The notes beneath the pieces are model-generated. The model was not told the DNA's origin. It did no database searches and was given only the letters and a program-made list of their open reading frames with translations. This document shows positions 37,030 through 48,174 of a stretch of 64,000 bases of DNA, piece after piece. This DNA is from Arcanobacterium sp. (lineage in GTDB: Bacteria; Actinomycetota; Actinomycetes; Actinomycetales; Actinomycetaceae): assembly GCA_022783665.1 (NCBI GenBank), contig JALFZJ010000020.1:1-64000 (forward strand), given 5' to 3'. Position numbers and translations under genes: made by a program. The first letter of the stretch is position 1. Each line of letters opens with the position of its first letter.

Positions 37030-37045
37030 TCGAACAAATGTTCGG
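37030..37045. promoter_or_regulatory. SOS (LexA) box upstream of recA
   Basis: TCGAACAAATGTTCGG, 15/16 to the actinobacterial palindrome TCGAACnnnnGTTCGA. Confidence 0.85.
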
Positions 37046-45829: not shown

Positions 45830-46642
45830 TTACAGCGAGCGGATTACTGATACGACTTTGCCGAGGATAGTTGCTTCGTCGCCGGGGATTGGATCAAAGG
45901 CAGGATTGCGCGGAAGGAGCCACACGTGGCCGTCTTTATGGCTCAGGACTTTAACGGTCGCCTCGCCGTCTATCATTGCGGCCACAATTTCGCCATTTTC
46001 TGCCGTGTTTTGTTGGCGGATGACGACGTGGTCACCGTCGCAAATAGCGGCGTCTATCATGGACTCACCTCGCACCCGCAACATAAACACCTCGCCGTGG
46101 CCGGTGATTGATCGAGGGAGAGGGAAGACATCTTCGACGTCTTCCTCAGCGAGTATTGGTGTGCCTGCTGCAATTTGCCCAACGAGCGGAACATTTACCA
46201 TTGAGGATGATTCCGCCTCAAGATGAGAATGCTCTGGATCGTGGGAGATAGGTAGTGTAGCGAGACCGGACAGGTGTGGTGCTGCGTCGTTGACTGCACG
46301 TAGATCCGTACCAACGGTGCTGGTAGGGGAGGGCTCGCCATGAGTCGAGGCGAGCGCAGCAGAAGAATCGTGCGCCCGCAGCGTACCTGTTTCGAGATCG
46401 ATGCGTGAACCGAGAGTCGTGATTTCTATTGTGCGTGAGCGGCCAGGGTCGCGCACAATGAGATCGAGATTCTCCAGGGCGTCGAGTTGGTATTTCACCG
46501 AACTAGGCGATGCGAGGCCTACGCGTTCAGCGAGTTCGCGAAAGGTAGGAGGGAAACCCTTCTCATCTACAGCGGCGCGAATAGCAGCGAAGATCTTCAG
46601 CTGGCGGTCTGAAAGACGCAGATTGGGCAGTGTATCTCGCAT
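45830..46642 (-). CDS. lexA: SOS repressor LexA
   Basis: Winged-HTH N-terminus (LSDRQLKIFAAIRAAVDEKGFPPTFRELAERVGLASPSSVKYQL), AAG cleavage site (GQIAAGTPI), catalytic GESM and ATVKVL Lys. Confidence 0.97.
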   Translation of the reverse strand: MRDTLPNLRLSDRQLKIFAAIRAAVDEKGFPPTFRELAERVGLASPSSVKYQLDALENLDLIVRDPGRSRTIEITTLGSRIDLETGTLRAHDSSAALASTHGEPSPTSTVGTDLRAVNDAAPHLSGLATLPISHDPEHSHLEAESSSMVNVPLVGQIAAGTPILAEEDVEDVFPLPRSITGHGEVFMLRVRGESMIDAAICDGDHVVIRQQNTAENGEIVAAMIDGEATVKVLSHKDGHVWLLPRNPAFDPIPGDEATILGKVVSVIRSL

Positions 46643-46829: not shown

Positions 46830-46910
46830 TCAAACATTTGTTCGGTCGAGTCGAACAGATGTTCTAGACATTCCTTGCGAATCGCTGTATTGTGTAGAAC
46901 AGATGTTCGA
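46830..46910. promoter_or_regulatory. Three SOS (LexA) boxes in the lexA / ORF46928 divergent region
   Basis: TCAAACATTTGTTCGG (46830-46845), TCGAACAGATGTTCTA (46851-46866), TAGAACAGATGTTCGA (46895-46910). Confidence 0.88.
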
Positions 46911-46927
46911 AAAGGTTGAGGTGAAAC

Positions 46928-47587
46928 ATGGCTACTTCTTTCGCAAATTGTGCGTATTCTCTGCCTCGCAGTGCTGTATCTGTGCAAAACGTTCAACAGC
47001 AAGGTGGCATGCAGCCTCCTGTGGAGGTGCGTGATTCTCTGAGGCTGGTATCGCCGGACGAGACTGGGTTGGAGGCCGCTGTAGCTGGCGAGGAAGCTGG
47101 TGGCGAGGAGGTTGCTCGCGTAACGGGCAAACGCAGTTCTCCGGTGGCTCTCCACGTCGTAGGAGGTGCCGTTGGAGGGAGTGCAGCCGCGCGTGATCGA
47201 AACGTTGGCGCGGAATCGTTGCGTGAGTTCGGCGGAGCGAAAGAGCGTCGCGGTACGATGAGACGCAAAGACGTGGTGCGCCCGGATCGCCCTCGTATTC
47301 GTTCAGGTGCTGCATTGTTTTCTGTGCAGACACCTGTGTCTGCCCCCGAGGTTGTAGAGTTTAGCCATTATGCAGGCACGTGGCGCATTGACGCGTCAGC
47401 GCCGGATCGGGCAATCAATCACGCTCGTAGATCCGCTCAGCATACGCCGCCTGTAGCGACTCCCGGATCATTGCTTACGGGAGTTGGCGGTGCGGCTATT
47501 GGTACATTTATCGTGAAGAGTCTTGCAGCAATGTTCCTTATGGCGAGCACGTTCTTTGCAGGAATTGCACTCGTCGCGGCACTGTGA
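46928..47587 (+). CDS. Putative SOS-induced membrane protein in the DivS/ChiZ position (candidate cell-division inhibitor)
   Basis: 219 aa, hydrophilic N-terminus and a single C-terminal hydrophobic segment (IGTFIVKSLAAMFLMASTFFAGIALVAAL); preceded by gaggtg RBS and SOS boxes; located lexA<- ->orf->nrdR. Confidence 0.6.
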   Translation: MATSFANCAYSLPRSAVSVQNVQQQGGMQPPVEVRDSLRLVSPDETGLEAAVAGEEAGGEEVARVTGKRSSPVALHVVGGAVGGSAAARDRNVGAESLREFGGAKERRGTMRRKDVVRPDRPRIRSGAALFSVQTPVSAPEVVEFSHYAGTWRIDASAPDRAINHARRSAQHTPPVATPGSLLTGVGGAAIGTFIVKSLAAMFLMASTFFAGIALVAAL

Positions 47588-47676: not shown

Positions 47677-48174
47677 ATGCATTGCCCATTTTGTAGACAT
47701 CCGGATTCACGCGTCATCGATACGCGAACCTCAGATGATGGAAACGTTATTCGCAGGCGACGCGAATGCCCACAGTGTAAACGCCGGTTTACAACGACGG
47801 AGACTGCATCGCTCACGGTGGTGAAACGTTCTGGAGCCACTGAGCAATTCAGCCGAGACAAGATCATTTCCGGTGTAGGAAAAGCCTGCCAGGGGCGTCC
47901 AGTGTCAGAAGATCAGCTGGCTGTGCTCGCGCAGCAGGTTGAGGAAAACATTCGCTCACGTGGAGTATCGCAGATTGAAGCTCACGAAATTGGCCTCGAG
48001 ATTCTCGATCCTCTCCGAGAGCTTGACGAAATAGCTTATTTGCGGTTCGCTTCGGTGTATTCGAATTTTGATACTCTTGAGGATTTTGAGCGTGCAATAG
48101 AGGCCTTGCGTCGCGATCACCCGTATCATCAATGTGCCGATCGTGACGTTGTTGAGCGCGGCGCGCTTGGCTGA
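47677..48174 (+). CDS. nrdR: Transcriptional repressor NrdR
   Basis: [42 protein letters not shown] zinc ribbon plus ATP-cone. Confidence 0.97.

Follow-up and report, generated by a model that had tools for sequence, protein, structure and literature searches.

The product of the ORF between lexA and nrdR in the window (the whole stretch of Arcanobacterium DNA analysed, 64,000 nucleotides) is probably a single-pass membrane protein of the ChiZ locus that is repressed by LexA, lacks a LysM domain, and delays division through its transmembrane (TM) helix and cytoplasmic region. The initial annotation had placed a 219-aa ORF between divergent lexA and nrdR genes, and this was borne out by TIGR00498 and TIGR00244 matches to the two neighbors and by an ATG start, preceded by the strong ribosome-binding site that had also been proposed. 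G+C at the three codon positions of the ORF is 0.69/0.56/0.49, with a high first position as in the neighboring genes. The locus is made up of the following genes and site:

45830..46642, minus strand: lexA, the divergent repressor gene (Pfam PF00717/PF01726; TIGR00498, 224 bits)
46918..46923, plus strand: ribosome-binding site GAGGTG, 4 nt before the ATG (sequence)
46928..47587, plus strand: gene of the LysM-less ChiZ-locus protein, 219 aa, ATG start (ORF call; profile homology; no LysM match)
47677..48174, plus strand: nrdR, the conserved downstream neighbor (TIGR00244, 158 bits; order kept in relatives)

The lexA-nrdR interval was extracted from 124 Actinomycetaceae genomes of 36 genera, which gave 122 usable proteins, with G069 and G015 left out because their intervals were unreadable; genera other than Arcanobacterium (g1) are given here by code (g11, g12, g17 and so on). 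In every family member whose fetched stretch includes lexA (119), the order is lexA(-)/orf(+)/nrdR(+), and the orf encodes a single-TM protein. Thus, conservation in related genomes, the lack of which the initial annotation had named as a possible refutation, was found in 119 of 119 cases, and the description of the ORF as an orphan does not hold, since syntenic homologues occur throughout the family. A LysM profile splits the 122 proteins cleanly into 93 that match at E 4e-15 or better and 29 with E >1. The LysM-less proteins come from eight genera: Arcanobacterium (10 of 10), g11 (3), g12 (6), g17 (1), g18 (1 of 6), g22 (6), g26 (1), and g29 (1 of 2). A Pfam check found LysM in two LysM-bearing relatives and one mycobacterium-like protein, and none in two LysM-less proteins.

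The window ORF itself has no match in Pfam, NCBIfam, or PHROGs, LysM included, and a search of the whole window genome for LysM gave no match anywhere, in agreement with the earlier observation that no LysM motif is visible. A LysM lying downstream or hidden by a frameshift was rejected, because the stop codon is fewer than 90 bases from nrdR and LysM has no match in the genome. Likewise, the idea that loss at the locus merely follows genome-wide LysM loss was rejected, because G001-G004, g11, G025, G121, and g22 keep LysM elsewhere. As a separate observation, no LysM domain was found anywhere in the window genome (G000), G006, the g12 genomes, or G034; in most of the family, the count is between one and nine. 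Other families (Cellulomonas, Isoptericola, Cellulosimicrobium, and others) and mycobacterium-like genomes have LysM forms at this locus, which suggests that LysM was ancestral here and was later lost. On a LexA+NrdR tree, the LysM trait requires 10 changes by parsimony, of which strongly supported branches force only 3. The number of losses is therefore uncertain, and the LysM-less form is a recurrent state in the family.

Homology to ChiZ-locus proteins was traced with a pre-LysM profile built from 10 LysM-bearing g25/g27 proteins with the LysM removed and no Arcanobacterium included. This profile places the window ORF at the top of the 870 reading frames of the window (E 1.2e-7; next frame, 0.73), and it also finds eight of the nine remaining Arcanobacterium proteins (8e-13 to 4e-5). 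The core of the match to the window ORF is VRPDRPR, after which come AVP-like and SA residues. In turn, the family LysM profile matches proteins of family f7 at the lexA-nrdR locus at 1e-16 to 1e-19; f7 was read as mycobacteria, because its proteins agree with ChiZ in length and in layout (the latter taken from PMC7355643). The link to ChiZ thus runs through intermediates, from the window protein to its LysM-bearing relatives by the pre-LysM profile and from these to the mycobacterium-like proteins by the LysM profile. No direct match joins the window protein to ChiZ, and for most of the mycobacterium-like proteins the pre-LysM profiles of the family gave no significant direct match. Based on the two profile matches, the window ORF is, as judged from sequence, a ChiZ-locus protein that lost its LysM. 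The name ChiZ should not be given to it, because the extracellular LysM domain of ChiZ was looked for and is absent. The reading of the ORF as a divergent or minimal SOS division inhibitor, or another SOS effector, therefore stands as regards its locus, its LexA boxes, and its homology to LysM-bearing ChiZ-type proteins, and falls as regards its orphan status.

The protein evolves fast. It is 26% identical to that of its congener G006, and single-sequence searches within the genus gave weak matches only, so that synteny and profiles were needed. A profile from G005-G007 alone did not find the window ORF; hence, only the wider set and the LexA/NrdR tree tie these congeners to it, and in that tree the support linking them to the window is SH-aLRT 90.

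The 285-base gap between lexA and the ORF contains three LexA boxes, which confirms and extends the LexA-type palindromes seen earlier, together with a promoter-like site directed toward the ORF:

46830..46845, no strand assigned: LexA box 1, 2 mismatches to TCGAACANNTGTTCGA; overlaps the -35-like hexamer of the lexA-directed promoter-like site
46851..46866, no strand assigned: LexA box 2, 1 mismatch to TCGAACANNTGTTCGA; touches the -35-like hexamer of the promoter-like site of the ORF
46865..46893, plus strand: promoter-like site TAGACA-17-TATTGT, between boxes 2 and 3; match count alone not above chance
46895..46910, no strand assigned: LexA box 3, 1 mismatch to TCGAACANNTGTTCGA; immediately follows the -10-like hexamer and lies 33 nt upstream of the start codon

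Two promoter-like matches were found in the region, compared to 1.0 +/- 1.1 expected. Their positions, between boxes 2 and 3 for the ORF and under box 1 for lexA, would fit repression of both genes. The 1.86-Mb genome has only six sites with no more than one mismatch. Boxes 2 and 3 are two of them, and the other four lie upstream of recA, at ruvC, by an ORF that looks RecA-like, and by an AAA_14/DUF4143 ATPase gene. Boxes also accompany the gene in relatives: a LexA box lies within 180 nt upstream of 28 of the 29 LysM-less and 85 of the 93 LysM-bearing genes, where shuffles predict 0.06 and 0.14, respectively, and the distances from the start codon are about -105/-84/-40 in relatives and -98/-77/-33 in the window.

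Some details of the other four sites are recorded here. The recA box (window 37030-37045; TCGAACAAATGTTCGG) has one mismatch and lies ≈230 bases upstream of recA (37261), and a second one-mismatch box lies in the ruvC region (G000:C29 7231-7246). A perfect box at G000:C4 7245-7260 is upstream of a 266-aa ORF that has no Pfam match and looks like a candidate ImuA'-type RecA relative. The perfect box upstream of the AAA_14/DUF4143 ATPase gene (L164, G000:C31 2681-2696) is adjoined by a tandem repeat of 4.8 copies of a 23-base unit (TGTGCAAATGGGATCGTTCGTGA) at L164:1542-1651.

The encoded protein is predicted to have a disordered cytoplasmic region and, at its C-terminus, a TM helix beyond which nothing extends outside the cell:

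47039..47050, plus strand: LRLV, codons 38-41, a short cytoplasmic L[RQ]xV motif (motif count in relatives vs shuffles)
47273..47377, plus strand: VVRPDRPR...FSVQTPVSAPEV, codons 116-150, a cytoplasmic module shared with LysM-bearing relatives (profile match)
47486..47581, plus strand: C-terminal TM helix, codons 187-218, then one residue and the stop (hydropathy, AlphaFold)

The single hydrophobic segment that had been noted at the extreme C-terminus coincides with the Kyte-Doolittle maximum (residues 201-219) and with a helix at residues 187-218 in a single-sequence AlphaFold model, where pLDDT is mostly 85-94 in the helix and below 50 throughout residues 1-163. Comparison with LysM-bearing relatives upheld the earlier view that the protein ends where LysM follows the TM helix in relatives. 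Tails beyond the TM segment range from 0 to 43 residues in the LysM-less forms (10-11 in G005-G007 and 33-40 in G001-G003), and that of the window protein is the shortest of the 29 (0 by hydropathy window). Near-tail-less forms, with 0-11 residues past the TM segment, occur in part of Arcanobacterium, g11, and g22. On the cytoplasmic side, L[RQKHYS][LVAI]V precedes the TM segment in 101 of 122 relatives, compared to 8.5 expected from shuffles, and does so in 26 of the 29 LysM-less proteins and in the LysM-bearing ones alike; this motif may be a docking site. In all, 18 proteins carry the VRPDxP...[LV]xxV pattern, and each comes from g1, g25, or g27. The g25/g27 proteins share with the window protein the locus, the boxes, the cytoplasmic VRPDxP...AVP module, and the single TM segment, but have 60-66 residues with LysM after the TM segment, where the window protein has none.

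We infer from these features that the window protein inhibits division as part of the SOS response. DNA damage would lead to cleavage of LexA, freeing the observed boxes, and lexA and the window gene would then be induced together. The protein is predicted to insert N-in through its C-terminal TM helix. ChiZ interacts with FtsI and FtsQ and causes filamentation when overexpressed. By analogy, the TM helix and disordered cytoplasmic region of the window protein, including LRLV and VRPDRP...AVP, may engage the FtsW/FtsI/FtsQ septal synthesis complex and delay division. This delay would occur without peptidoglycan binding, as reported for the N-terminal region plus TM segment of ChiZ, which suffices for filamentation (PMC7355643). 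The ChiZ LysM is reported to be dispensable (PMC3989709), and the ChiZ TM segment is predicted to bind FtsW TM7 (PMC13396833).

Of the two models in the literature, the window protein fits that of ChiZ, in which N-terminal region and TM segment suffice. M. tuberculosis ChiZ (Rv2719c), compared through mycobacterium-like loci and the literature, shares with it the position between divergent lexA and nrdR, the LexA boxes in the promoter, and a disordered cytoplasmic N-terminus followed by one TM helix (PMC7355643), the last a prediction for the window protein, but has a linker and LysM outside. C. glutamicum DivS, an SOS-induced division suppressor (PMC6851548, PMC3989709), is likewise LexA-controlled, LysM-less, and beside lexA, and differs, by description only, in its predicted extracellular C-terminus. 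The requirements of B. subtilis YneA for LysM and of S. aureus SosA for its tail count against a tail-less inhibitor. YneA is also an SOS-induced, single-TM division inhibitor, but its TM segment alone localizes to the septum without inhibiting division; the TM segment finds FtsW, and LysM, for which the window protein tested negative, is needed to block synthesis (PMC13396833). SosA is also LysM-less, with a single TM segment, and beside lexA, and removal of most of its extracellular tail abolishes activity (PMC6851548). Its layout is the reverse of that of the window protein: SosA has 77 aa, a short N-terminus, and an essential extracellular segment, whereas the window protein has a long cytoplasmic part and at most about one residue past the TM helix. 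A SosA-like mode is unlikely, because that tail is missing. Turnover by a CtpA-type protease acting on such a tail was also considered. Peptidase_S41, the CtpA type that trims SosA and YneA, was found in only 11 of the 121 family genomes; the window genome lacks it, as do 110 of the 121, and its absence is therefore uninformative.

If the inhibitor had been inactive since LysM was lost, the gene could be a decaying relic that survives only temporarily under LexA control. Among the 29 LysM-less proteins, that of the window is truncated furthest and is very divergent, and dN/dS is somewhat higher in LysM-less g12 pairs with unsaturated dS (0.26-0.39) than in LysM-bearing pairs with dS ≤1 (0.12-0.22); many pairs are saturated, and the usable LysM-less pairs are those of g12, with the window's own lineage outside the estimate. 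However, the boxes, start, ribosome-binding site, cytoplasmic module, and TM segment are all retained, all of g1 and the whole genera g12 and g22 keep intact LysM-less ORFs, and the g22 proteins (89-96 aa) have dN/dS of 0.08-0.16, albeit at saturated dS. Together, these properties make decay improbable. We give still less weight to a membrane effector that is SOS-induced but has another role, such as in envelope stress, and that came to occupy the regulatory position. Such an effector would accord with the lack of any match in the protein libraries, but the cytoplasmic module is shared with LysM-bearing proteins at the same lexA-nrdR locus, and in Gram-positive bacteria those lexA-adjacent proteins that have been characterized inhibit division (PMC6851548). 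Finally, a YneA-like brake whose wall binding is supplied in trans by a partner of the TM protein, as the need of YneA for peptidoglycan binding could suggest (PMC13396833), is very improbable, because any such partner would need a non-LysM fold in a genome that has no LysM match at all.

LysM-less SOS inhibitors are already known (DivS and SosA); a limited literature search found no description of recurrent LysM loss, of the tail-less form, or of the conserved cytoplasmic module. We tentatively suggest that in several lineages the SOS brake has repeatedly been reduced to almost no outside part and acts only through its TM helix and a short docking module in the cytoplasm. If this is true, then the brake does not need to bind the wall, and ChiZ-type inhibitors have their functional core on the inside. 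Published work conflicts on this point, with LysM dispensable in ChiZ and essential in YneA. Repeated loss of LysM at a conserved SOS locus amounts to a set of natural deletions that tests which part of the brake works, and the conserved cytoplasmic motif offers a target to mutate. Moreover, the SOS division gene of the LysM-less genera would escape any search based on LysM.
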